From: Candidatus Iainarchaeum sp.
Lineage (GTDB): Archaea > B1Sed10-29 > WALL01 > JAGHAM01
Length of the DNA stretch: 27,252 nt
Assembly: GCA_021161465.1 (NCBI GenBank)
Contig: JAGHAM010000024.1
Location: forward strand, 1-27,252
Reading direction: 5' to 3'
Within the stretch, counting starts at the first letter, position 1. Every line of letters begins with the position of its first letter. The notes below the pieces were generated by a model. It was not told where the DNA came from, did no database searches, and saw only the letters and a program-made list of their open reading frames with translations. The position numbers and the translations under genes are program-made. Positions 5,735 to 26,332 of the stretch are shown here, one piece after another.

Positions 5735-8700
5735 TCACGTAATCTTCTTTAACAGCCCCTCTGGGTCAGAGTAGTATCTTTGTATTATCCTTCCAACATC
5801 TTTGTAGTATCTGATATTCTCCTTTAACATCCACTCAAGAACCTTCACCCTCCTTTGTATCTCTTTCCAGACCTCACTTTCCGGGATGCCTTTTTCTTTT
5901 ATTATCTCCTCAAGGACATACGACTTGTCTGATGAGAATTTGAAGGTTTCATCAGCAGGGTTCCATTCGAAAAGCGTGTTGGTTATTGGCTCCTGCTCGT
6001 GCGTTAAGCCTACAACTTCAACTATCTGCTTTGCCCTTCTGACTTCAACACCCTTGACTTTTGCCCTTGCCAAGATAATCATTATATCCAGATGCTGTAA
6101 CAGCCCTGGTGATAAGTTTATTGGTGGAGTTTGCAGCCTGTGGATGACAGAGTCAACGGAGTCACCGTGGATAGTTGCCATCCCAGCGTGGCCAGTGTTG
6201 TGTAACATTATTCCACCAAATCCACCTATGAAATTCTCTGTTGTAGGTACACACAAGTCATATACAGGTTCAGGAGTTTTAAGTTTGATTTCTCTTATTG
6301 ATTTTATTGGGTCACAATACACGTCACCATGAACCCGTGGATTTGGCCTTCCAACTCTAACTAATTTAGGTTTCTTGTTCACAGGTTTGACGTATCTCAT
6401 GAATTCTTTCATCTCCTCCTCCCTGTAAAATTCTATTCGGTGGATATCCTGATTTTTATAGCAGTGTGCAACTATCCCATATGACAATAGCAGGTACATC
6501 AAATCATCAGCTAGTTGTCTTGATTTTGTGCTGTACTGGAAGTTGTCAGGACCAAGGTAACCATCACCAGCGTATAATCCACTTAGGAATTCACCAATCC
6601 TTTCCTTTGACAATCCAAAGATGAAATCCGGGACTCTCTTGTTTGAGGAACCTACGCCACATAGCTGTTTCAAGAACTCAAATAATACCTTATGGCTGGT
6701 AGAGAGTTCTTTGCTCTTCCCATAACCATGCACTTCACGTTCTCTTGGCGCTTTACCTGTCACAGCTCTGATGCATTTTCTCATATCTTCAAGAACTCTC
6801 TTATCCCCATTGTAAAGCTGTATTGAATTGTTTTTCTTTGCTGTATTCAGTGAGCCTTCCGAAATGTAATACCCAATTAATCTCAATAGTTCATCAGTTA
6901 CTTTTAGTTTTGCAGGGAGCCTTTCGCTTTTTCTATCGAATTTTACGGATATCTTATCCAAGCTGTTATGGACTCCGGCAGTTGCAAGGAGTTTATGATA
7001 GCTTTCTGCGTGTAGCGCGGACATGTTTTTGCCATAGTAGTCAGAGATAGTCTTAACGCCACATAGTTCACCAGCCTCTTTCCATCCAAGGATTTCCACA
7101 GCTTTTCTGATGTAGTTTGGTGCAACCACTCTGATGCCTTTTAGAAGTCTTGTCAAGTCCAACCACTTGACATTGGCGTATCCGCTTGGTATCTTCCTTG
7201 GCACTATTATCTTGCTACCTGTTTTCAGGGTTTTAACTTCAGCTTCAGTTATCTTTCCGTCCTTCATGACGAAAACTGAGTGGTCTCCTGTTAACTGTAT
7301 CCTCCTCCCAGTTGACGTTACAATTTCATACAGTTTTTCCCTTGGAGGATGTTGGACACATGCTCTCAGAGGGAGTAGCTTGACCTGCCCAGTCTTTGGG
7401 TCTATGGTTGTTGCTTTGTAGCCGTCAAGCTTCTTTCCTATAAGGTTTGATATTGGCTCTCTGATGGTGTGGCCTTCCTTATCCACAAGCAGGACTTTTT
7501 CATTTCCACGTATAGAGGCCATTCCCTGGAATAGCACGTATGCTTCCTTGCCCCTGACTTCTCCCACTATTATCTCGTCAGGCCTTTCCCTTAAAGCTGC
7601 GCGCAGAAGGTCATACATGGTTACCTCTCCCTGCTTCCTTCCGGTTATGTCTTCCCTGCCAAAACCGCTTCTGACAACCTTCTGAACCCAGTGCTCGTGT
7701 GGGAGCCTAACTTCAGGTGTGTCCTCTATGCTGACTATCTTGGCGTCGGCTGGAAGGAACATCGACAGCGAGCCTAACAGGCAGGTCTTGCCTGTGGCAG
7801 TTCCACCAGCTACAAGTATAGAATGGTTGTATTCTATTGCAAGCCAGAGGTATGCAGCTATCAGTGGGGGCAGTGTCCCAAATTTCATTATATCGGTTAT
7901 CGTCAGTGGGTCTTTCGTGAATTTCCTGATAGTGAATGTAGACCCATGCATGGCTATGTCCATATGCGAGGAGAATGTGGCCTGAACCCTCGAGCCATCC
8001 GGAAGCGCGCCGTCAAGCAGAGGCTCTGCAACTGATATGTGCCTCCCGCACCTCTGGGCCAGCCTTATGACGAATTCATTCAGCCTTTCCCCATCGGTGA
8101 AGCTTATGTTAGTTGGCAGTGAGCCATACTTCCTGTGGTAAACGTAGATAGGTATCCCAACACCATCGCATGAGATGTCCTCAAGATTGGCATCGTGCAT
8201 CAGTGGCTCTATCTCCCCAAGCCCAAGGAAGTCCCTGAAGACGTAATAAAGTATCTCATCGTACTGGTCTTTTGTCAGGTGGATTCCATAATCCTTCATG
8301 ACAACGTCCACTTTCTCTTTAAGCGACTTTTTTATCAGCTTTGGTTCCTTTACCTCAAATAGGTTGATGTCAAGCAGGTCTATTGCCCTCTCTTTTATTA
8401 GTGTGAGCTGCCGCTTTTGCTCTTCAGTCACAAAAGGCTCCAGCACATAGTATTCAAGTCTCGCCCTGGCTGGGTTCCATTTCAGGTTTGCCATAGAAAA
8501 CGGCTTTATCAGGTAGTACTTCTCGTCAACCTGCGTGAACTCTGGTGGCTTCCAGGCCGATGACATAGTCTTCAGGTATTGTGTTGGTATTTTGTGGGCT
8601 TTTACCGGGGCGTTCCTTAGCTCGCTTGCTTCCCTCTCTATCTCAGGAGCTTCTGTTGCTGATATATCCATTGGAGTTGACTCTTTCATTGGGGTGGTTG

Positions 8701-8899
8701 AAACCATGGAGAAGTCAAGGACCTCTGGCGGCTTTACATCCACAGTCCTCTTAACCGTTAGTTCTCCACTTGATGACACTTTTTCAATCTCTCTTTGTTG
8801 TGTCTCCGACTCTTTCTTGATGGTGTCTAAGCCCCGCTCACGCTCCCGTATTCTCTCGGCAGCTTTCCTGAGTAATCTCCTCGATAGTGCCATTTTCAT
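5735..8899 (-). CDS. FlaI/VirB11-like pilus assembly ATPase interrupted by an intein
   Basis: 1054 aa precursor; removing the intein (462-901) leaves 614 aa. The extein is a secretion-superfamily ATPase that powers pilus assembly at the cytoplasmic face. Residues 1-110 are a charged, probably disordered extension. An N-terminal domain follows (LGLGEIEPLMHDANLEDISC), then Walker A GGTATGKT (365-372), the Asp-box region SIEDTPEVRLPHEHW (390-404), Walker B DEIIVGEVRG (441-450) and, after the intein, the His-box TGHAGMATIHGDSVDSVIHR. The start ATG at 8899 overlaps the upstream stop as TGATG; a second in-frame ATG is two codons on. The FlaI-type sequence TPPINLSPGLLQHLD confirms an archaeal relative. 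Function depends on protein splicing, because the intein separates Walker B from the His box. Confidence 0.92.
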   Translation of the reverse strand: MKMALSRRLLRKAAERIRERERGLDTIKKESETQQREIEKVSSSGELTVKRTVDVKPPEVLDFSMVSTTPMKESTPMDISATEAPEIEREASELRNAPVKAHKIPTQYLKTMSSAWKPPEFTQVDEKYYLIKPFSMANLKWNPARARLEYYVLEPFVTEEQKRQLTLIKERAIDLLDINLFEVKEPKLIKKSLKEKVDVVMKDYGIHLTKDQYDEILYYVFRDFLGLGEIEPLMHDANLEDISCDGVGIPIYVYHRKYGSLPTNISFTDGERLNEFVIRLAQRCGRHISVAEPLLDGALPDGSRVQATFSSHMDIAMHGSTFTIRKFTKDPLTITDIMKFGTLPPLIAAYLWLAIEYNHSILVAGGTATGKTCLLGSLSMFLPADAKIVSIEDTPEVRLPHEHWVQKVVRSGFGREDITGRKQGEVTMYDLLRAALRERPDEIIVGEVRGKEAYVLFQGMASIRGNEKVLLVDKEGHTIREPISNLIGKKLDGYKATTIDPKTGQVKLLPLRACVQHPPREKLYEIVTSTGRRIQLTGDHSVFVMKDGKITEAEVKTLKTGSKIIVPRKIPSGYANVKWLDLTRLLKGIRVVAPNYIRKAVEILGWKEAGELCGVKTISDYYGKNMSALHAESYHKLLATAGVHNSLDKISVKFDRKSERLPAKLKVTDELLRLIGYYISEGSLNTAKKNNSIQLYNGDKRVLEDMRKCIRAVTGKAPREREVHGYGKSKELSTSHKVLFEFLKQLCGVGSSNKRVPDFIFGLSKERIGEFLSGLYAGDGYLGPDNFQYSTKSRQLADDLMYLLLSYGIVAHCYKNQDIHRIEFYREEEMKEFMRYVKPVNKKPKLVRVGRPNPRVHGDVYCDPIKSIREIKLKTPEPVYDLCVPTTENFIGGFGGIMLHNTGHAGMATIHGDSVDSVIHRLQTPPINLSPGLLQHLDIMIILARAKVKGVEVRRAKQIVEVVGLTHEQEPITNTLFEWNPADETFKFSSDKSYVLEEIIKEKGIPESEVWKEIQRRVKVLEWMLKENIRYYKDVGRIIQRYYSDPEGLLKKIT
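6197..7516 (-). mobile_element. Intein with LAGLIDADG homing endonuclease inside the pilus ATPase
   Basis: 440-residue intein, precursor residues 462-901, inserted in-frame as GMA|intein|TGHAG. Block A starts at Ser462 (SIRGNEKVLLVDKEG). Block B has T-x-x-H at 537-540 (TGDHSVFV). Block F is VYDLCVPTTENFIGG (879-893), where the usual block-F His position is Glu888. Block G is GIMLHN (896-901) with penultimate His900, terminal Asn901 and Thr902 as the +1 nucleophile. A dodecapeptide (DOD) endonuclease is present, with LIGYYISEG (Glu681) and FLSGLYAGDG (Asp779), both acidic residues intact. Splicing and homing therefore both look functional. Joining the flanks restores the conserved ATPase motif, which fixes the boundaries exactly. 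Confidence 0.93.
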
Positions 8900-11764: not shown

Positions 11765-12835
11765 CTAAAGTGGAATCAATGTAATGTATTTCGCAAGTTT
11801 GGATAAAAGCCTTGGCTTTCCGAGCAGGTGCTTGGCAAGTGTTGACACCTTATCCATATCACCATAGTCCTCTATCAGTTTGGGAATTCCCTCTGAGATT
11901 GCCAGGTCAAATAACTCATCCAACTCATTCTCAGGTATCTTAGCCATCGAATCGTGAACCTTTCTGTGGAGACTAAGCTCTTTCTTGAACTCCCGTTTCC
12001 AGAGCTCGTCGTATTCTCTAAGGTCCAAGCCTTTCCCAATGACCTCTCCGGCGATTCTGGCGCAGAATCCACCTATTGCTATGCCCCCGCCAGTGGTTGC
12101 CTTTACCTGGTCGGCAGCGTCGCCGATTAGGATGGTGTTCTTTTCTGGAAATGTAGTTGGCTGGTTATTGTACAGGGGTATCAACCCCCCAGTTTGTTTC
12201 TCGGCCTTCACGTTGATACCCTTCTCTTTCATGAACTTTCTTAGTGCTGTTACCGGGTCACCATTCTCAACGCCTATACCTATCCTGCATTTGTTGTTTC
12301 CCTCTGGTATTACCCAGGCAAAGAACCCTGGAGCCCATTTACCAAAGTGAAGCTCCACGAAATCCTCATCTCTCTCAAGCTTCCCTGTAATCTGGAATGC
12401 CTTGATAAACTCTTTCTTGTTTCCTACTGAACGGGCTATGAGCGAGTTAGCCCCATCCGCCCCAACAAGTATATCCCCTGTTTTTCTGGTTACCCTTTCA
12501 CCAGTTATTATCTGCGCGCCCTCAGCAGTTGCTTCCTCTGCGATAAGTTGGTCAAACTTTGGCCTGTCAAGGACAGCTGCCTGATACTGGTTACGCTTTA
12601 ATTCAATCATCTTTCCAGACGGTGAGAATACCCTTGCACCAGAACACTCATTGAGCACAGCTTCCTTATAGTCAACCCCAAGGTCGTCCAGGCCTTTTTT
12701 AGATACAAGCCCTGAGCACTGGCTGGGATAACCAATTCGCTCGTGCTCTTCAAAAACTATCACGTTTCCTCCATTAAATGCAATCTCCTTCGCGCAAAGT
12801 AGCCCGGCAGGGCCACCACCAATAATACTAATCAT
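11765..12835 (-). CDS. Geranylgeranyl reductase family flavoprotein
   Basis: 356 aa FAD-dependent oxidoreductase of the GGR family, which in archaea saturates the geranylgeranyl chains of ether lipids. Visible motifs: the dinucleotide-binding MISIIGGGPAGLLCA, the GGR-type YPSQCSGLVS (36-45), GADGANS (125-131) and TILIGDAADQVKATTGGGI (the second FAD motif, from about 234). It is slightly shorter than typical GGRs (~390 aa). The ATG at 12835 places the Rossmann strand at the very N-terminus; a TTG three codons earlier is the alternative. It is convergent with carbamate kinase and divergent from the RHH fusion gene. The substrate could be archaeal lipid, menaquinone or polyprenol; membrane-lipid saturation is the default inference. 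Confidence 0.88.
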   Translation of the reverse strand: MISIIGGGPAGLLCAKEIAFNGGNVIVFEEHERIGYPSQCSGLVSKKGLDDLGVDYKEAVLNECSGARVFSPSGKMIELKRNQYQAAVLDRPKFDQLIAEEATAEGAQIITGERVTRKTGDILVGADGANSLIARSVGNKKEFIKAFQITGKLERDEDFVELHFGKWAPGFFAWVIPEGNNKCRIGIGVENGDPVTALRKFMKEKGINVKAEKQTGGLIPLYNNQPTTFPEKNTILIGDAADQVKATTGGGIAIGGFCARIAGEVIGKGLDLREYDELWKREFKKELSLHRKVHDSMAKIPENELDELFDLAISEGIPKLIEDYGDMDKVSTLAKHLLGKPRLLSKLAKYITLIPL

Positions 12836-12858
12836 TAGCTTCAATTACTGTCCTAACA

Positions 12859-12868
12859 CATATAAAAA
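12859..12868. promoter_or_regulatory. Shared TATA element between divergent genes
   Basis: ACATATAAAA on plus (TTTTATATGT on minus) is the only TATA-like run in the 59-nt divergent gap. It is centred ~29 nt from the minus ATG at 12835, with a GGAAG BRE-like flank on that strand, and ~31 nt from the plus ATG at 12895. It may drive one or both genes. Confidence 0.4.
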
Positions 12869-12894
12869 CTTCCTTTTACAAAAACATCTGTGCT

Positions 12895-13713
12895 ATGAAA
12901 AGGGAAAGAATCACGATTACACTCTCGAAACAGCTCTTGGATAGGATAGATTCCATCATTGATGGAAGCAATATAAGGAATCGCTCGCACGCAATAGAGA
13001 GCCTTGTGGAGAAGTCTATTGGTTCAACTGTTAGCTCCGCGCTGATAATCTCAGGTGACAGGAAGATTCGAATACATCCGCTGGCCAGGAGGATTCCAAA
13101 GCTATTAACGCCGGTTAAGAAGAAAACTCTTGCAGAGCACATGATAAACTGGATGAGGGAAAACGGCCTGGTGAGAATAATTGTTGGTGCGGGCTACAAG
13201 AAGGACAAGATATCAGAACAGCTTGGTGATGGCTCTAAATGGAAAGTTAACATCACTTATGCTAATGGTGCTGGTAAAGTTCCTGGGGATATGGATTATC
13301 TGCTTGGGGCAAGGGAGCAGCTTATGGGTGGCCGCTTTGTCCTGGTAGAGGGCGATGTGGCTACCCAGCTGAATCTGAAAGGCATGCTTGACTTTCACGA
13401 GAGGAACAACGCACTTGTTACCATAGCTGTAAAAAGCGTTCCAAAGCCAGTTTCGGATGTTGTCGAGCTTGAAGGGTTCAGAGTAGTTGACATAAAGCAA
13501 AAGCCAGGCAAGGAATTTAAATCAAATCTGGTTTATGCGGGGGTGTGCATCATGGAGCCAAAAGTATTTGATTATCTCGGTAATAAACCTGCAAAGAAGG
13601 ATTTCCTTTCGCTGGTTGCCTCTGAGGGCGAGCTTTATGGTTATCCCTTTACAAGTCCATGGGTGCGGATTTTAAATGTGAATGATGTTAAGTTAGCTGA
13701 AAAGGTGTTTTAA
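12895..13713 (+). CDS. Ribbon-helix-helix domain fused to a degenerate sugar nucleotidyltransferase
   Basis: 272 aa. Residues 4-43 match a CopG-type ribbon-helix-helix: beta strand RITITLS, helix LLDRIDSIID, turn SNIRNRS and helix HAIESLVEKSI. Residues ~48-270 follow the NDP-sugar pyrophosphorylase fold: the loop region is IISGDRKIRIHPLARRIPKL then LTPVKKKTLAEHMINWM, aligning with the usual GG-x-G-T-R...PKPL.PV.GKPL pattern, and VEGDVATQLNL (Asp154) matches the metal-binding strand. The GG-x-G-x-R loop is altered to SGDRKIR, so catalysis is doubtful. Its stop abuts the next gene's ATG with no gap. It could be a DNA-binding regulator that senses a nucleotide sugar, or a non-catalytic partner of the enzyme next door. 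I know of no named family for it. Confidence 0.75.
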   Translation: MKRERITITLSKQLLDRIDSIIDGSNIRNRSHAIESLVEKSIGSTVSSALIISGDRKIRIHPLARRIPKLLTPVKKKTLAEHMINWMRENGLVRIIVGAGYKKDKISEQLGDGSKWKVNITYANGAGKVPGDMDYLLGAREQLMGGRFVLVEGDVATQLNLKGMLDFHERNNALVTIAVKSVPKPVSDVVELEGFRVVDIKQKPGKEFKSNLVYAGVCIMEPKVFDYLGNKPAKKDFLSLVASEGELYGYPFTSPWVRILNVNDVKLAEKVF

Positions 13714-14751
13714 ATGAAAGCAATAGTCCTAGCTGGTGGTTATGCAAAGAGGTTCTGGCCAGTTACTATCTATAGGCCGAAGCCACTTTTGCCGGTTGGC
13801 GGAAAGCCAATAATGGATTTCATAATGGAGAGGCTGGAGGAGGTTCCTGAGATTGATACAGTGTATATCTCAACCAACTCTGCTTTTGAGGACAGGTTTA
13901 AAGAGTGGCTTGATGAAAGGAAATTCAGCAAGAGGGTTGAGCTAATCATAGAGCCGACGCACAAGGAATCTGAGAAATTTGGGACTATCAAGGGTGTTGA
14001 GTATGCAATCAAGAAAAAGAGAATCAATTCTGATTTGCTTGTGGTTGCGGGGGATAACATATTCTCATTCGACTTGAAGAAGTTTGTGCACTCCTTCCCG
14101 GATGACCCGCGTTTGATAGTTTATGACATGAAGGACCCATCCAGGTGCAGCAGGTATGGGGTTGTTGCTTTGGATGATTCAATGCGTGTGGTTGACTTCA
14201 AGGAGAAGCCAAATAAGCCAAAATCTTCGCTTATCAGCACTGCTTGTTATGTTTTTCCGAAGAAAACAGTGCACCTATTCAAGGATTACTTAGCTACTGG
14301 CAGCTCGGGGGACAACATGGGATTCTTCCTTGAGTGGCTTTACAAGAGGACCACCGTAAGGGGATTTGTCACCGAGGGTTACTGGTATGACATAGGGAAC
14401 AAGCACTATTACATACAGGCTAACGTTGACCTGATGGAGAATGCACCAGATGGCAGCTTGATTTTTGGAAAAACTTCGCATTCCAGAATCACCCGTTCGT
14501 ATATCGGAAAAAACACACTGATAAAGAACTCGGCCATAAAGGAATGTGTCATCTTTGACAACGTCCACATAGAGAATTGCTCTCTTAGAGGGTGTATAAT
14601 AGATAACAATGCGATAATCGTTAATGTTGACCTGAACGACTCGCTGATAGCGGCTTACACCAAGCTCGAGAAGAGGAAGATAATAGCCAGCAGGCGCTTC
14701 TTCCTGCCACCAGTTACAGGCCAGGAGATTCTAAAGCCAAACTATGACTAG
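13714..14751 (+). CDS. Sugar-1-phosphate nucleotidyltransferase with left-handed beta-helix tail
   Basis: 345 aa. It makes an NDP-sugar from a sugar 1-phosphate and NTP (GlmU/RfbA/GMPP-like). The N-terminal motif is IVLAGGYAKRFWPVTIYRPK followed by PLLPVGGKPIMDF; the usual GTR is AKR here. Further motifs are LVVAGDNIFSFD (Asp114, metal), DFKEKPNKP (161-169) and GYWYDIGNKHYYIQAN (222-237). Residues ~245-312 form imperfect hexapeptide repeats of a left-handed beta helix (SYIGKNTLIKNSAIKECVI). Which sugar and which nucleotide cannot be read from the sequence. It is cotranscribed with the RHH fusion gene and probably supplies glycan precursors for cell-surface or pilin glycosylation. Confidence 0.88.
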   Translation: MKAIVLAGGYAKRFWPVTIYRPKPLLPVGGKPIMDFIMERLEEVPEIDTVYISTNSAFEDRFKEWLDERKFSKRVELIIEPTHKESEKFGTIKGVEYAIKKKRINSDLLVVAGDNIFSFDLKKFVHSFPDDPRLIVYDMKDPSRCSRYGVVALDDSMRVVDFKEKPNKPKSSLISTACYVFPKKTVHLFKDYLATGSSGDNMGFFLEWLYKRTTVRGFVTEGYWYDIGNKHYYIQANVDLMENAPDGSLIFGKTSHSRITRSYIGKNTLIKNSAIKECVIFDNVHIENCSLRGCIIDNNAIIVNVDLNDSLIAAYTKLEKRKIIASRRFFLPPVTGQEILKPNYD

Positions 14752-16188: not shown

Positions 16189-17370
16189 ATGCTATACGTT
16201 CGAAGAGACCTGGAAAAAACATTCGAGAAAGTACGTGAGTCTTATGGTATGATTGTCATAGTTGGAGCCAGACAGGCAGGGAAGACCACCCTACTAAAGA
16301 GAAAGCTAGAAGAACATGGTGGAACTTACGTTTCGCTTGATGATCCCGATGCAAGAGAATTGTTCAACGAAGACATAAAAAAGTTTGAGAAACAATGGGT
16401 TCAAGGGAACAAAATTACGGGAATCGATGAAGTGCAGTATGGGGAAGATGCAGGCATAAAATTAAAGTACCTTGTGGACAAAGGATACAAACTTTGGGTT
16501 ACTTCTTCCTCAGAGATAATCTTAGGAAGGGACGTCCTTTCATATTTGGTTGGAAGAACATCCATACTAAGACTCTTTCCCTTTTCTCTAAACGAGTTTT
16601 TGAGGGCTGGGGACATCAAAGTCCTAACAGGTAAAATCAAAACACGGGCTGTCTGGGAACATTTGAACTGGGGAGGTTATCCTAAGGTTGTTTTAACTGA
16701 TGATTCTGAAATGAAAAAAATTTTGCTTAGGGATTTAATTGATACTATGTTGTTGAAAGATGTTTCCAAGAATTTTTCCATAGAAGATTTAGGCACTTTG
16801 GAGAATCTAGTTAGATACCTTGCTGTGAATGTTGGTGGTATAATTTCTTATGAGAACATCACCTCTATGCTTGGAATTTCATTTCAAACGTTGAAAAAAT
16901 ACCTCAACGCCCTTGAGAAGAGTTATGTGGTAACAAGGGTTTTGCCTTTCTACACCAATAGATCCAAGGAGTTAACTAAAAGGCCAAAAGTTTATTTCAT
17001 AGATGCTGGCTTGAGGAACGTTGTTGCAAACGAAATCAGCACGGAAGTAAAAGGGGACATCTTTGAGAACTACGTGCTGACAGAGCTCCTTAAGTTAGGT
17101 TTTACGCCAAAGTACTGGAGAACAAAGTCAAAAGCAGAAGTTGATTTTGTGGTTGAGAGAGAAAGTTCTGTTGTGCCCATAGAAGTGAAGATAACCGCAA
17201 CCAAGACACCAAAAAGTTTGAAGTCTTTCATAAGGTCGTACAAGCCAAAAGAAGCTCTGGTTGTTTTCCATAAGGGGAAGCCAAAGGAATTGAAAGTGGA
17301 TGGATGTAAAGTCATGTTTACAGATGTTTTGGGTTTGGAAGAGTTTTTTGGGGTAAAATTGGATAGCTAA
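16189..17370 (+). CDS. AAA ATPase, DUF4143 family
   Basis: 393 aa. N-terminal P-loop AAA_14 domain: Walker A GARQAGKTT (26-34), VSLDDPDA, Walker B ITGIDEVQ (76-83), sensor-like LWVTSSSEIIL and the family motif LVGRTSILRLFPFSLNEFL (120-138). A winged-helix-like linker follows at ~205-255. The C-terminal DUF4143 domain has KVYFIDAGLRN, GDIFENYVLTEL and a PD-(D/E)XK-like pattern (AEVDFVV, then PIEVK, 316-334), so it may bind or cut nucleic acid. A weak AGGT precedes the ATG. Such ATPases are common, often multicopy and mobile in archaea, and their function is unproven. A paralogue lies at 25046-26332. Confidence 0.88.
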   Translation: MLYVRRDLEKTFEKVRESYGMIVIVGARQAGKTTLLKRKLEEHGGTYVSLDDPDARELFNEDIKKFEKQWVQGNKITGIDEVQYGEDAGIKLKYLVDKGYKLWVTSSSEIILGRDVLSYLVGRTSILRLFPFSLNEFLRAGDIKVLTGKIKTRAVWEHLNWGGYPKVVLTDDSEMKKILLRDLIDTMLLKDVSKNFSIEDLGTLENLVRYLAVNVGGIISYENITSMLGISFQTLKKYLNALEKSYVVTRVLPFYTNRSKELTKRPKVYFIDAGLRNVVANEISTEVKGDIFENYVLTELLKLGFTPKYWRTKSKAEVDFVVERESSVVPIEVKITATKTPKSLKSFIRSYKPKEALVVFHKGKPKELKVDGCKVMFTDVLGLEEFFGVKLDS

Positions 17371-17934: not shown

Positions 17935-18531
17935 TTACTTTCTGGTCCCTTCCAGTATCTTATCTATCTTCTTCTCTAAGTTCTCAGTGAATACACTGGC
18001 GTTCCAGTTGCTAAGGTTCCACAAGTCAACGTAAATCTGGCCTATTGGGATGGTCTTGAACTTCTTCAGGTGCTCGTCAATCTGCACGACTATGAGATTG
18101 GCTTCCTCGAATTCAGGTTCTCCAAATTTATCCTCGAACGCTTTTTCCTCCCCATACACCCAGACTTCTGAGTAGTCTGCTGGCATCTCATTGAATGTAA
18201 GCTTAAATCCCGAGTACGCTGTAAGAAGAGAACCTTTTGGAACCATGCCCTCTATCTCATCCACTTTTTTTGGAACCCGTGTTTTGTAAACCACGTGGTC
18301 TTTTGGATTCCATATTGTAGCCCAGTAGTTCAAAAGCTTTTTTGGCTCGGTTACCTCAAAGCCATCAGATGTCCTTTTTATGACTTCAATCCCTTCAAGC
18401 CGCTGTGTGGCATAGTTAATAGCCTCCATAGACGACCCATCGCCTGCATCCAGCTCTTTCAGTGTGAAGTGATATTGGTTCTTCTCGAGGATTCCATACA
18501 TAATCTCTCTGTAAACCCATCCAACATCCAT
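17935..18531 (-). CDS. Orphan winged-helix protein, paralogue of the antitoxin-like gene at 19232
   Basis: 198 aa from the ATG at 18531. The frame extends 14 codons upstream, but alignment to the paralogue (MDVGWVYREIMY versus MKIEWVYREIMY) and a TATA box 26 nt away fix this start. Beyond the N-terminus the two proteins match closely (KKLLNYWAT, TAYSGFK, NEMPADYSEV, FGEPE, HLKKFK, IPIGQIYVDLWNLSNW). The HTH segment at ~22-45 differs: the paralogue has a regular LARECNISIGTVNYALQRLE, whereas here it is LDAGDGSSMEAINYATQRLE. No nucleotidyltransferase gene follows it, so it looks like an antitoxin or regulator without its toxin. It may bind other DNA or have lost DNA binding. Confidence 0.75.
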   Translation of the reverse strand: MDVGWVYREIMYGILEKNQYHFTLKELDAGDGSSMEAINYATQRLEGIEVIKRTSDGFEVTEPKKLLNYWATIWNPKDHVVYKTRVPKKVDEIEGMVPKGSLLTAYSGFKLTFNEMPADYSEVWVYGEEKAFEDKFGEPEFEEANLIVVQIDEHLKKFKTIPIGQIYVDLWNLSNWNASVFTENLEKKIDKILEGTRK

Positions 18532-18552
18532 ATGCCTACTTACGTGTTTTTC

Positions 18553-18561
18553 ATTTATAAA
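18553..18561 (-). promoter_or_regulatory. TATA box of the orphan winged-helix gene
   Basis: Minus-strand TTTATAAAT, followed by GAA, is centred ~26 nt upstream of the ATG at 18531. The same element stands at the same distance before the paralogue at 19831, so promoter and gene were probably duplicated together. Confidence 0.6.
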
Positions 18562-18648
18562 CCATGAGGCCAAGACTGGTAGTACCTAGCTTGAAATACC
18601 CAAGTGTAAATTGCCAATGAGAAACCTCCGCAAGTTTTGGATGCGCCA

Positions 18649-19263
18649 TCAGCCAAGTTTTTCTAGGTAATACTTTTTCAGGGTTTTTACCTCCCCTGGA
18701 GTTTTGCCACCAACTTCCTTGAATTCCTTAGAAGAGGACCTTACAAGCCTCTTTAGCTCTTCCTTGTAGTGCCTTAACCCATACTCTTCGACTAATTCCA
18801 GATAGCCCTTAAAATCCACGTTTCCGAAAAGTAATAAAGAAACTATGTCTATTCTATCTTTTCTGCCTTTTACACTGTTTCTCCTGTTTATCTCTGCTTC
18901 TTGCTTTAGTATCAGCAGAGCCTCAGGCCTGGGCAGTTTAAAATTTTCAATAATTATTACATTCCGGGTTATCTCATGAGTTGGGATGACAAATTTCGAG
19001 TAACCCTGCACGTAAATGTCTATATCCACCCCCTCAACCTTTGTCTCATATTTCTTTAGCCTGTCATTTTTCTTGATGTTGAACTTGGTCTTTAGCTTTG
19101 ATAGCTCTTCAAAGTCAATTATCACATCTATGTCCTTGGATTTTAAAGCTCTTGTTAGGAGGTAGGTTGCCCAACCCCCTATCAAAACAAAGTCAAACTC
19201 TGTTTTGAGTGTCTTGAGTAACTCCCAGCTTCTATCTGTTATAATGGGATTCCAGAATTTCAT
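18649..19263 (-). CDS. Nucleotidyltransferase, AbiEii/MNT-like toxin candidate
   Basis: 204 aa. Polymerase-beta-type nucleotidyltransferase fold: FVLIGGWATYLLTRALKS (25-42) with the GG motif, then KDIDVII with Asp44 and Asp46, and a third carboxylate at VDIDIYV (Asp80/Asp82). The C-terminal half has RPEALLILKQEAE and a charged helical tail with KGRKDRIDIVSLLLF, resembling the KxRDxxD region of AbiEii-type toxins. Its start overlaps the upstream winged-helix gene by 32 nt, so the two are translationally linked. By analogy with AbiE systems it would add nucleotides to a cellular RNA such as tRNA; this is inference. It is distinct from the second, more typical AbiEii at 23268. Confidence 0.75.
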   Translation of the reverse strand: MKFWNPIITDRSWELLKTLKTEFDFVLIGGWATYLLTRALKSKDIDVIIDFEELSKLKTKFNIKKNDRLKKYETKVEGVDIDIYVQGYSKFVIPTHEITRNVIIIENFKLPRPEALLILKQEAEINRRNSVKGRKDRIDIVSLLLFGNVDFKGYLELVEEYGLRHYKEELKRLVRSSSKEFKEVGGKTPGEVKTLKKYYLEKLG

Positions 19264-19831
19264 TTATCTTTTCCTCCAGGCTTTCAATGAATGTATTGGC
19301 GTACCAGTTGTTCAAATTCCATAGGTCAACATAAATTTGGCCAATTGGTGCAATTTTAAATTTCTTTAAATGTGCATCAAGTTGCAGGGCTATTAAATTA
19401 GGTTTCTTGGGGGTGGGTTCTCCAAACCTATTCTCAAGACTAGCTTTATCACCATAAACTACTACCTCTGCATAATCTGCTGGCACCTCGTTGAACTTGA
19501 ACTTGAATCCAGAATATGCCGTGAAGATAGAACTTGGAGGGACTTCACTTTCTATTTCTTCGATGCTTTCAGGGAGGGCTGTTTGATAAACTATCCTGCC
19601 CTTCAACTTCCCCATAGTTGCCCAGTAATTTAGTATTTTCTTTGGGTTGATGACTCTGAAACCACGGGATAATTTTTCAATTGCATTTATATCCTCTAAT
19701 CGCTGGAGGGCATAGTTCACAGTCCCTATAGATATATTGCACTCTCTTGCCAGTCCTTTCTGTGTGAATCTATATTTGCCCTTTTCAAGAACACTGTACA
19801 TAATCTCTCTGTAAACCCATTCTATCTTCAT
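19232..19831 (-). CDS. Winged-helix antitoxin-like regulator paired with the nucleotidyltransferase
   Basis: 199 aa. Residues ~4-55 form a winged helix (WVYREIMYSVLEKGKYRFTQ, then LARECNISIGTVNYALQRLE as the HTH, then IEKLSRGFRVI as the wing). The rest is a conserved domain with KKILNYWAT, TAYSGFKFKFNEVPADYAE and PIGQIYVDLWNLNNW. The organisation of a winged-helix protein ahead of a nucleotidyltransferase matches AbiEi-AbiEii logic: antitoxin and autorepressor. The ATG at 19831 has a TATA box at leaderless distance. Its 3' end overlaps the toxin candidate by 32 nt. The orphan paralogue at 17935 is a close homologue. Confidence 0.75.
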   Translation of the reverse strand: MKIEWVYREIMYSVLEKGKYRFTQKGLARECNISIGTVNYALQRLEDINAIEKLSRGFRVINPKKILNYWATMGKLKGRIVYQTALPESIEEIESEVPPSSIFTAYSGFKFKFNEVPADYAEVVVYGDKASLENRFGEPTPKKPNLIALQLDAHLKKFKIAPIGQIYVDLWNLNNWYANTFIESLEEKINEILESHYNR

Positions 19832-23267: not shown

Positions 23268-24023
23268 TCATGAAATTTCCTTGATTACAGTGGTAGCGAC
23301 CTTCTGATAGTCAGGAATATCTTGCATGAGAGAAGCTAACTCATTGCCCCAGGTTTCCTTTAGTTCAATGATTCTATGATGTATAGTGTTTGAGTCATAG
23401 TTAATGGAGTAATAATCCAGTTTTTTTTGTACCAGCTTCTTATCAAGTTTTGTCTTCTTTCTGAGAAGGAACCAGGTGTCATATAAGTCTCTTGCCTTCT
23501 TTCTCGTTGCTATTGCCCTCATTTTTTCAGCTAGGATTTCCTTAGGTTGCATGACAATTGTAATATAAGGCATGAGATCAGGGTACACAGGAACCACGCT
23601 TACACTTTTTGGTTTTAACAATACTTCCTCCCGGGTGCTTATCTGAAGTGTGATGACTGCCTTGGTTCTCTCACTACCATCATAAAGTGGGCCATTAATG
23701 GCTAATCTGAAGCTTATACCACTTTCCTGCATTTTTTTGTTTCTTAAACTAGCAGGATACCCAAATCTCTCAACGTCATTGATAACCTCGCCTAAAACTT
23801 TGTCCAAATTCAACTCACTATTTAGAGTGAAATCCAAATCTTCAGAGAATCTATTTAGTCCAAGCGTCTTCTGCAGGCAGGTACCTCCCTTGAAAACCAA
23901 CTGGTTACTTACACGTTTGTAGAGAAGCTGGAGAATGAGGTGTTGTAGGTAATCTCTCTCTACTTGGCCAAGGTTGAAACCAAGGATGTTTTGGTAGTTC
24001 ATCAAGGTTTTTTTATCTATCAT
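23268..24023 (-). CDS. abiEii: AbiEii nucleotidyltransferase toxin
   Basis: 251 aa. Type IV toxin-antitoxin nucleotidyltransferase. Motif I is LVFKGGTCLQKTLGLNRFSE (42-61) with DLDF (Asp62 and Asp64 as metal ligands). Motif IV is MQPKEILAEKMRAIATRKKA followed by RDLYD, giving the diagnostic K-x-R-D-x-x-D. This is the standard AbiEii/DUF1814 layout. AbiEii-like enzymes block growth by modifying tRNA with nucleotides, from work on bacterial family members. The ATG overlaps the antitoxin stop by 4 nt. It probably acts in plasmid-like stabilisation or phage/virus defence; in this archaeon that is inference. Confidence 0.9.
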   Translation of the reverse strand: MIDKKTLMNYQNILGFNLGQVERDYLQHLILQLLYKRVSNQLVFKGGTCLQKTLGLNRFSEDLDFTLNSELNLDKVLGEVINDVERFGYPASLRNKKMQESGISFRLAINGPLYDGSERTKAVITLQISTREEVLLKPKSVSVVPVYPDLMPYITIVMQPKEILAEKMRAIATRKKARDLYDTWFLLRKKTKLDKKLVQKKLDYYSINYDSNTIHHRIIELKETWGNELASLMQDIPDYQKVATTVIKEIS

Positions 24024-24730
24024 TCCAACACCTCATTGATGATAAGTTTCCACTCTTTAGCCCTCTCCCCACTCTCCGGGAATAATGGGTTAAGTGGGTC
24101 ATAAGAGCGATTGATCAGCTTCTTGAGTGGGGAGGCATCTATCCCAGAGAGCTCCATAAGATAACCTACTCTTTTAGCGACAACTATAGAGTTCATCCTT
24201 TTGGTGTATCCAATTAGTTTTTCCCTGTCTACTCCTCTTTCAAGGGCTTCTTTAATTTCAGTTAGCGGGCAGTACTGTGGCAGGTAAGCAGCGTCAACTA
24301 TTATCTTTTCCTTGTCACCAACAAAGGCATACCCCATTTCATGTTTATGCTTCTGGTAGCCAAATACCCTCCTTGGGTGTATTTTAATGAATCTTATCTT
24401 TACTCCTTCATAGGCTACCTCTTTTAGGTTTCTATAAGTTACAACATGGAGCGTTTGCGGTATCTGTGTGGTCAGATTGTGGTAAGCCAAACCACCTAGG
24501 AAAGACACGTAGGAGGGTGATAACAGGTTGGAAGCTACAACCTCAGGTCTTGCTTCGGCAAGGCAATATCTAGCCTTTGTTATCCTCCTAATTGTGTCTC
24601 TTTCCTCAAGCCGTTTCAGGTAGACACGGGTGTAGTTTATATTCTTTCCAATGAGCTTTGCAACATCTTTCGAGCTAAATACACCCAACTTTGCTCTCTT
24701 CACCTCTTCTACGAATTCACTTTCCTTCAT
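24020..24730 (-). CDS. abiEi: AbiEi antitoxin and transcriptional regulator
   Basis: 236 aa. The N-terminal winged helix (residues ~5-58: FSSKDVAKLIGKNINYTRVY, then LKRLEERDTIRRITKARYC) is followed by the AbiEi C-terminal domain (YVSFLGGLAYHNLTTQIPQT, VTYRNLKEV, IRFIKIHPRRVFGY and YAFVGDKEKIIVDAAYL). This is the classic cognate of AbiEii. A Shine-Dalgarno-like AAGGTG lies 7 nt before the ATG. It is expected to neutralise the toxin indirectly and to repress its own promoter. The 4-nt overlap with the toxin gene couples translation. Confidence 0.88.
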   Translation of the reverse strand: MKESEFVEEVKRAKLGVFSSKDVAKLIGKNINYTRVYLKRLEERDTIRRITKARYCLAEARPEVVASNLLSPSYVSFLGGLAYHNLTTQIPQTLHVVTYRNLKEVAYEGVKIRFIKIHPRRVFGYQKHKHEMGYAFVGDKEKIIVDAAYLPQYCPLTEIKEALERGVDREKLIGYTKRMNSIVVAKRVGYLMELSGIDASPLKKLINRSYDPLNPLFPESGERAKEWKLIINEVLE

Positions 24731-25014: not shown

Positions 25015-25045
25015 TAAATATATGTTAAAATAATAGGTGAAGAAT

Positions 25046-26332
25046 ATGAAAAACAAACTTTTTCCGCGAGATATCCTCCCAAAACTTTTAAGGTGGATGG
25101 AGAGGAGAGAAATCTACGCCATTAAGGGGCCACGCCAGTCTGGTAAGACCACCCTTCTTCATTTGCTCAAAAATGAACTTGTAAAAAAAGGAGTGGATGA
25201 AGATAAAATAATCTTCTTGAACTTTGAAGACCCAGATGTGCTAGAAGGTTTCTCACGTAACCCAAAAACATACATAAAAAGCTTCATGATGGATAACGGT
25301 AGACATTATTTCTTTATGGATGAATACCAGTATGTTAAGGATGGGGGAAAGAAGCTAAAGTTGCTTTATGATGATATAACCAATGCAAAGTTTGTGATAA
25401 CTGGTAGCTCTTCACTTGAGATCTCTGGTGGGATCGGAAAGTCTCTCGTTGGAAGAGTTTTTTTCTTCGAATTATTGCCTTTTAGTTTTCACGAGTTTCT
25501 GACCGTGAGAAATCCGCGTCTTGCAAGAGTTTACGAAGAACACAACAGTTTAATCAAGAAATTCATTTTAGAGGGAAGGAACTTTCAGTTGTCAGAAGAT
25601 CCATTTACAAACGAATTTTTTCCTTTGTTTGAGGAATATCTTATTTTTGGTGGTTATCCTGAAGTAGTTAAGACAAGGGACAGTGAGACCAAGAAGGTAA
25701 TATTGAAGAATATTTATGATACTTACATCTCAAGAGATGTAATCGGGTTTCTAAGGGTGTCTGATCCACTAGCTTACAGATGCATAGTTAGAGCATTAAG
25801 TGCAACTACTGGAGGCATGCTGGACTACAACAAAATATCCAGTTCATGTGGAAGCAGTTACAGAGAAACTCGAAAAGTGATTTCAATGTTAAGTGAGACA
25901 TATATTCTTCACTTGCTCCCACCATTCTTTAGGAACCCTGTTACTGAGTTGAGGAAAACTAGAAAAGTTTATTTCTTTGATTCAGGTCTTAGAAATCACA
26001 TTATCAATAATTTTAACCCTCTGGATTATAGAACTGATTCTGGAGCTTTAGTGGAGAATCATGTTTTTTCGGGTTTGTTTAGAATGCTAGCTGAAGTCCA
26101 AATGCCGTTGGCTTATTGGAGGACAATTTCAAAAGCGGAAACAGATTTTGTGATCGATGGGAAGATACCCATAGAAGTTAAATATACATTGATTAAGGGA
26201 GTCCCCAAAGGTTTGAGGAGTTTTATCGAGAAATATCAACCCAAGAGGGCGCTTGTCCTTGCCAGAGATTCATGGAAAGAACAAATGGTGGGAAAAACCA
26301 TAACTAAGTTCATCCCCTTGCACTATATATGA
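25046..26332 (+). CDS. AAA ATPase, DUF4143 family (second copy)
   Basis: 428 aa. Walker A GPRQSGKTT (28-36), FLNFEDPDV, Walker B YFFMDEYQYV (88-97), ITGSSSLEIS and SLVGRVFFFELLPFSFHEFL, the family signature also seen in the copy at 16189. The C-terminal DUF4143 domain has KVYFFDSGLRN, GALVENHVFSGL and a nuclease-like AETDFVI then IPIEVKYT. The ATG at 25046 is preferred over the GTG at 25037 because AGGTGA stands 5 nt before it. The two ATPases share layout but only moderate identity, so they are old paralogues or separate arrivals. Function is unknown; a link to nucleic-acid processing or defence is inference. Confidence 0.87.
   Translation: MKNKLFPRDILPKLLRWMERREIYAIKGPRQSGKTTLLHLLKNELVKKGVDEDKIIFLNFEDPDVLEGFSRNPKTYIKSFMMDNGRHYFFMDEYQYVKDGGKKLKLLYDDITNAKFVITGSSSLEISGGIGKSLVGRVFFFELLPFSFHEFLTVRNPRLARVYEEHNSLIKKFILEGRNFQLSEDPFTNEFFPLFEEYLIFGGYPEVVKTRDSETKKVILKNIYDTYISRDVIGFLRVSDPLAYRCIVRALSATTGGMLDYNKISSSCGSSYRETRKVISMLSETYILHLLPPFFRNPVTELRKTRKVYFFDSGLRNHIINNFNPLDYRTDSGALVENHVFSGLFRMLAEVQMPLAYWRTISKAETDFVIDGKIPIEVKYTLIKGVPKGLRSFIEKYQPKRALVLARDSWKEQMVGKTITKFIPLHYI

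Follow-up and report, generated by a model that had tools for sequence, protein, structure and literature searches.

Does the gene at positions 12895-13713 encode a sugar-nucleotide enzyme that has become a DNA-binding sensor, and does it control its own expression? The window, meaning the whole 27,252-nucleotide stretch of Candidatus Iainarchaeum sp. DNA that was analyzed, holds at this place a gene (gene A) described in an earlier note as a ribbon-helix-helix (RHH) domain joined to a sugar-nucleotidyltransferase (NTase) fold with a broken catalytic loop. The note read it as an enzyme turned sensor, possibly forming a self-regulating NDP-sugar module with an intact NTase that follows with no gap (gene B). 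Gene A is organized as follows.

12895..13713, + strand: gene A, an RHH domain fused to a sugar-NTase fold; 272 aa, ATG to TAA
12895..13029, + strand: RHH domain, residues 1-45, with the reading strand R5-x-T7-x-T9, helices at 12-20 and 30-42, and an RNRSHAIE motif
13036..13710, + strand: NTase-fold domain, residues 48-272, from Pfam (49-229) and PDB matches

The NTase fold of gene A is certain. Pfam NTP_transferase (PF00483) matched residues 49-229 above the cut-off (E 4.7e-15), and sequence searches of the PDB returned sugar pyrophosphorylases with E-values down to 5.9e-18. Foldseek searches with the gene A model also returned sugar pyrophosphorylases (best 8x7s, E 1.9e-20), and structure alignments showed about 18-27% identity to these relatives. 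The RHH domain is weaker when judged from the window sequence alone. Pfam RHH_1 scored 20.0 bits on residues 5-39, slightly below its cut-off of 20.5, NCBIfam NikR models matched the N-terminus at E about 1e-4, and phmmer gave a weak alignment of residues 4-43 with residues 2-41 of NikR (1q5v, E 0.16). The assignment is supported by conserved relatives and by the helices predicted with AlphaFold2. This monomer prediction, made from a 61-row family alignment, reached a mean pLDDT of 90.6 and a pTM of 0.84, and placed both helices ahead of the NTase fold. The beta strand of an RHH domain pairs only within the dimer and does not form in a monomer model. The C-terminal nickel-binding domain of NikR is absent from gene A, in which the C-terminal part is the NTase by both Pfam and Foldseek. 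The proposed fusion was therefore confirmed by Pfam, Foldseek, the NikR models and conserved relatives, and structure prediction agreed. Conservation across many phyla ruled out a chance fusion or a mis-called start.

Gene A was then compared to family members with an intact active site, and residues were matched by motif to the catalytic residues of a GDP-mannose pyrophosphorylase structure. In that structure a Glu-Lys pair and both Asp residues are described as critical for catalysis, the sugar is bound by an Asn, and Gly, Thr and Arg of the loop touch citrate at the pyrophosphate site (PMC9168903). Four changes stand out in gene A.

13051..13071, + strand: degenerate signature loop SGDRKIR, residues 53-59; family consensus AGGxGxR
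13498..13500, + strand: Q202, replacing the Glu of the EKP motif
13534..13536, + strand: Y214, replacing the sugar-binding Asn of the NAG motif
13666..13668, + strand: R258, replacing the second metal-binding Asp of the WxD motif

The broken loop is thus present as claimed, with GG changed to GD and the fourth-position G to K, though the loop Arg (R59) is retained. K69, D154 and K203 are also retained, D154 being the only one left of the Asp pair. Where an active enzyme would carry a GGxGxR loop, the EKP Glu and two metal-binding Asp residues, gene A has GD-R-K-I-R, Q202 and R258. Judged by these motifs, the NTase domain is more broken than the earlier note stated, because Q202, Y214 and R258 have changed as well. 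Among 14 active-site positions scored, the window copy keeps 7/14 and its sister in genome G001 keeps 8/14, a similar degree of erosion; in the tree, the window copy sits on a long branch (0.82, compared to 0.22 for the sister). The idea that the broken loop is unique to the window copy was ruled out because loop changes occur throughout the family.

The genes on either side of gene A are the following.

13714..14751, + strand: gene B, an NTase (Pfam NTP_transferase, E 1.8e-40) with left-handed beta-helix (LbH) matches; its loop, AGGYAKR, keeps the Arg
11765..12844, - strand: divergent geranylgeranyl-reductase-like FAD enzyme, from a profile match; a neighbour only

Gene B begins at 13714 with zero gap after gene A, as the earlier note had it, and by position the two genes are predicted to share one transcript. 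The A-B pair is adjacent in the window genome (G000), G001 and G009, while in G002 some 1.1 kb separates the two genes. The gene A counterparts of G001 and G004 likewise have a similar divergent reading frame upstream. This arrangement raises the possibility, in our view an unlikely one, that gene A is a dead NTase paralogue that binds an NDP-sugar and tunes enzyme B by contact, with the RHH domain serving mainly for dimerisation or localisation. The adjacency of A and B in three genomes, a pocket eroded in A and intact in B, and a window promoter with no operator all fit such a regulatory subunit. There is also a precedent in GMPPA, which has no catalytic activity itself but, as a paralogue able to bind GDP-mannose, inhibits GMPPB (PMC11228364). 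However, most family members have no gene B homologue beside the fusion, the RHH reading strand is kept although dimerisation alone does not need it, and putative operators are present in the wider family. The proposed NDP-sugar module with an adjacent NTase holds within the window's order and essentially not beyond it.

Several other loci in the window were noted. A type II/IV secretion (PilB3-like) ATPase at 5735-8899 (-) is interrupted by an intein that contains a LAGLIDADG domain (Pfam Intein_splicing, LAGLIDADG_3). An AbiEii-type nucleotidyltransferase (Pfam) at 23268-24730 (-) adjoins an upstream gene with no Pfam match, and the two are a possible type IV toxin-antitoxin pair. At 17935-19831 (-), a DUF6036 nucleotidyltransferase overlaps a winged-helix gene, with a winged-helix paralogue next door; these may be a second such module. 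Two AAA_14/DUF4143 ATPase genes lie at 16189-17370 and 25037-26332 (+).

The whole genomes of 61 relatives were searched for the fusion, and then a wider sequence collection. Full-length fusions were found elsewhere in the order and across the domain. The collection search found 193 relatives, of which 80 loci were retained, from Diapherotrites, Aenigmatarchaeota, Altiarchaeota, Micrarchaeota, Nanoarchaeota and many CPR phyla. In total, 88 distinct fusions from DPANN and related archaea and from CPR/Patescibacteria were analyzed. The earlier note had named absence of the fusion from all relatives as an outcome that would overturn its reading; this is decisively not the case. The reading-strand residues R5, T7 and T9, whose counterparts we take to read bases in NikR, are kept in 82, 79 and 81 of the 88 fusions, respectively. 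The RNRSHAIE motif is near-invariant in a sample that favours RHH-bearing relatives, because RNRSHAIE was one of the two search patterns. RHH_1 was matched by 18/61 members at E 1e-3. Fusion rows cluster on the tree (2 label changes, compared to 20.3 in shuffles), a pattern compatible with a single origin of the fusion.

There is large variation in the active site across these members. The loop Arg is kept in 27/88 fusions and lost in 61/88, with replacement by K (24), N (19), Q (6) or various other residues; the Asp of the GD pair is kept in 87/88. Distribution of the Arg on the tree requires 5 changes. Many of the 27 Arg-bearing members also retain other active-site residues, which is what would be expected if members were active pyrophosphorylases that also bind DNA, the window copy being an odd active or decaying version. 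The model for such moonlighting would be PutA, in which an RHH domain is fused to an enzyme and the protein acts as repressor of its own regulon (PMC5293562). In CPR members, however, K, N or Q has usually replaced the loop Arg, which is lost there, and both the window copy and its sister have lost several active-site positions. We hold this account to be unlikely. One CPR genome (that of L080) has a second RHH-NTase gene, at L176:668-1468 (-); its loop is altered, and a perfect operator lies 32 nt ahead of it.

Sequences of 150 nt before the fusion genes were searched for candidate operators, using dinucleotide shuffles and downstream sequences as controls. The most enriched hexamer was GTATGA/TCATAC. 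GTATGA occurred in 43/87 fusion promoters, compared to 6.3 expected from shuffles and 3/88 downstream controls. Same-strand pairs were most often spaced by 10 bp (20 times), then by 20, 30, 40 and 50; spacings of 37, 47 and 57 were also seen in a few cases. The pair GTATGA-N4-GTATGA was perfect in 18 loci (0.0 expected), had one mismatch in 12 (0.1 expected) and two mismatches in 15 (1.3 expected). GTATGA is the half-site of E. coli NikR, whose operator is GTATGA-N16-TCATAC (PMC7055735). The sites overlap or adjoin TATA/start regions in archaea and a -10-like sequence in CPR. The presence of this specific sequence at many of the family's own promoters supports the self-regulation proposed in the earlier note, at the level of the family. 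Likewise, the notion of an enzyme turned DNA-binding sensor has good support at family level from the conserved fusion, the retained reading residues, the frequent loss of the Arg and the predicted operator. A different RHH protein could occupy the GTATGA sites.

The upstream GTATGA is missing from about half of the fusion genes, including the window's. Eight Roizmanbacteria/Microgenomates fusions (L077, L086, L098, L099, L102, L114, L123 and L128) have no GTATGA and have in common a TTTGAC-N5-TCAA-like promoter sequence, possibly a switched operator or merely a -35 element. In two Doudnabacteria genomes (L174, L175), triple GTATGATA-type repeats were seen near the fusion locus.

GTATGA pairs were also found before genes other than the fusion. 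In four archaea, exact non-self pairs precede gluconeogenic operons: FBPase-GAPDH-PGK (G002), FBPase-PGK (G069), PGK-GAPDH-TIM-FBPase (G090), and both GlpX FBPase-aldolase and GAPDH-PGK in G058, the GAPDH, TIM and some PGK assignments having been made in part by eye from the sequence. Among CPR genomes, pairs that are perfect or carry a single mismatch lie ahead of galE-galT-galK, PRPP synthetase genes, a PfkB kinase, a GH13 gene followed by glycerate kinase, and six hexokinase genes of one family, five of them 61-68% identical to the L266 copy. In several archaea, divergent PGM/PMM or GHMP sugar kinase genes share the regulator's promoter. Site architecture covaries between the fusion gene's own promoter and the PGK promoter in two genomes: half-sites are 20 bp apart in both promoters of G079, and AATATTACGAAGTATTAC is common to both in G086. 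Among fusion genomes, a pair with at most one mismatch was present upstream of 5/22 PGK genes (4 exact) and 2/11 FBPase genes, the G069 site counting under both; upstream regions (up to 1,500 nt) of PGK in 16 genomes with no detected fusion gave 0/16 at the same threshold.

Some sites have no evident sugar target and lie by phosphoribosyltransferase, S-layer-like or unannotated genes. Several gene calls adjoining operators have no Pfam match, and some exact sites are beside unrelated genes. Related S-layer-like genes have sites some 185-215 nt ahead of them at L136:1501-1516 (G001, exact) and L312:438-453 (G009, one mismatch); the S-layer-like genes of G000, G002 and G004 showed no operator.

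The promoter of the window copy lies in the space shared with the divergent gene.

12836..12894, no strand assigned: divergent promoter region, with no GTATGA/TCATAC operator

A TATA-like sequence, ATATAAAAAC, is present at 12860-12869, about 26 nt ahead of the gene A ATG. The best GTATGA pair at this promoter has 5 mismatches in 12, and the best at the G001 fusion promoter has 4, neither better than shuffles. Self-regulation, supported for the family, was thus not borne out for the window copy. No operator was found at the gapdh, gapn, tpi and fbp promoters of the window genome, and the promoters of gene A, gapdh, gapn and tpi revealed no shared motif. In G000:C35 a one-mismatch site was rejected as an operator, being inside an ORF and of a kind outnumbered by the reversed-pattern control.

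By these comparisons the window copy is an eroded family member: its RHH motif is complete, and no operator can be recognised at the promoter of the gene. Its long branch, eroded pocket and operator-less promoter would all suit a decaying gene with no function. This seems improbable, however, since the reading frame is unbroken, nothing of the RHH motif is lost, the AlphaFold confidence is 90.6, and A and B still stand head to tail. The protein probably still dimerises. It may read another DNA site, act on gene B as a partner or be decaying.

The account we favour, and consider probable, is that of an enzyme-derived, autoregulated family of sugar-metabolism regulators of which the window copy is an eroded member. 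Its members would be one-component regulators with a NikR/CopG-type RHH domain fused to a sugar-1-phosphate nucleotidyltransferase. RHH dimers would read GTATGA half-sites repeating every 10 bp, and this phasing suggests that adjacent dimers sit on the same side of the helix. Because core promoters are overlapped or closely approached by the sites, binding would in most cases probably repress the regulator's own gene together with gluconeogenesis or sugar-phosphate genes. The NTase domain would bind a sugar-1-phosphate, an NTP or an NDP-sugar and thereby tune DNA affinity; these ligands are proposed because the fold binds them and many targets make or use them. Archaeal members with a full active site may be enzymes doubling as regulators, and CPR members without the loop Arg probably act as nothing more than sensors. 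The window copy would be the eroded end of this series from enzyme-like to catalytically dead members. A broader view, toward which we lean only slightly, is that this is a carbon regulator common to CPR bacteria and DPANN archaea. The RHH-NTase fusion would read the same operator in both domains of life, and the level of sugar-1-phosphate or NDP-sugar would set gluconeogenesis in the archaea and the use of galactose and hexoses in the bacteria.

The control of central carbon flow in the ultra-small cells of CPR and DPANN is little understood, and a single family with a recognisable operator names target operons for which a binding assay is feasible. No description of an RHH-nucleotidyltransferase fusion or its operator was found in a literature search that covered mainly open-access journal articles, and this family from tiny archaea and bacteria is apparently undescribed. 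The kind of regulator is already known, because PutA (PMC5293562) and NrtR (PMC6800001) are enzyme-derived regulators.

Comparison to known systems shows where the family departs from each. RmlA, MurU, Arch_glmU and GMPase have the same fold and motifs as the NTase domain of gene A; the fusion adds an N-terminal RHH domain, and many members have lost the signature loop and other catalytic residues. NikR has an N-terminal RHH domain that aligns at the reading strand and the same half-site (PMC7055735), but it senses through a nickel-binding domain instead of a sugar-NTase fold. Its half-sites form GTATGA-N16-TCATAC, whereas those of the family are mostly 10-bp direct repeats with targets in sugar metabolism. 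Trifunctional PutA also places an RHH domain N-terminal to a metabolic enzyme and is the repressor of its own regulon (PMC5293562), but its enzyme fold and pathway are unrelated and it retains catalysis. This architecture is present in gene A, and an own-promoter operator is found in the family, with none found at the window's. GMPPA (PDB match 7d72) is a sugar NTase that has lost catalysis and is paired with an active paralogue (PMC11228364), as gene A may be with gene B, but GMPPA has no DNA-binding domain, acts by protein contact and has a beta-helix domain missing in gene A. NrtR is an auto-repressor in which a nucleotide-metabolism enzyme fold is reused as a one-component sensor (PMC6800001), and a member of its family controls arabinose use (PMC4666351). 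Its fold and DNA-binding domain both differ from those of the RHH-NTase fusion. The DNA-binding domain of NrtR is a winged helix. If the proposed account is true, a sugar-nucleotide enzyme has been turned into a transcriptional sensor in parallel to NrtR, which derives from a Nudix enzyme, and the members would grade from enzyme-like to dead.
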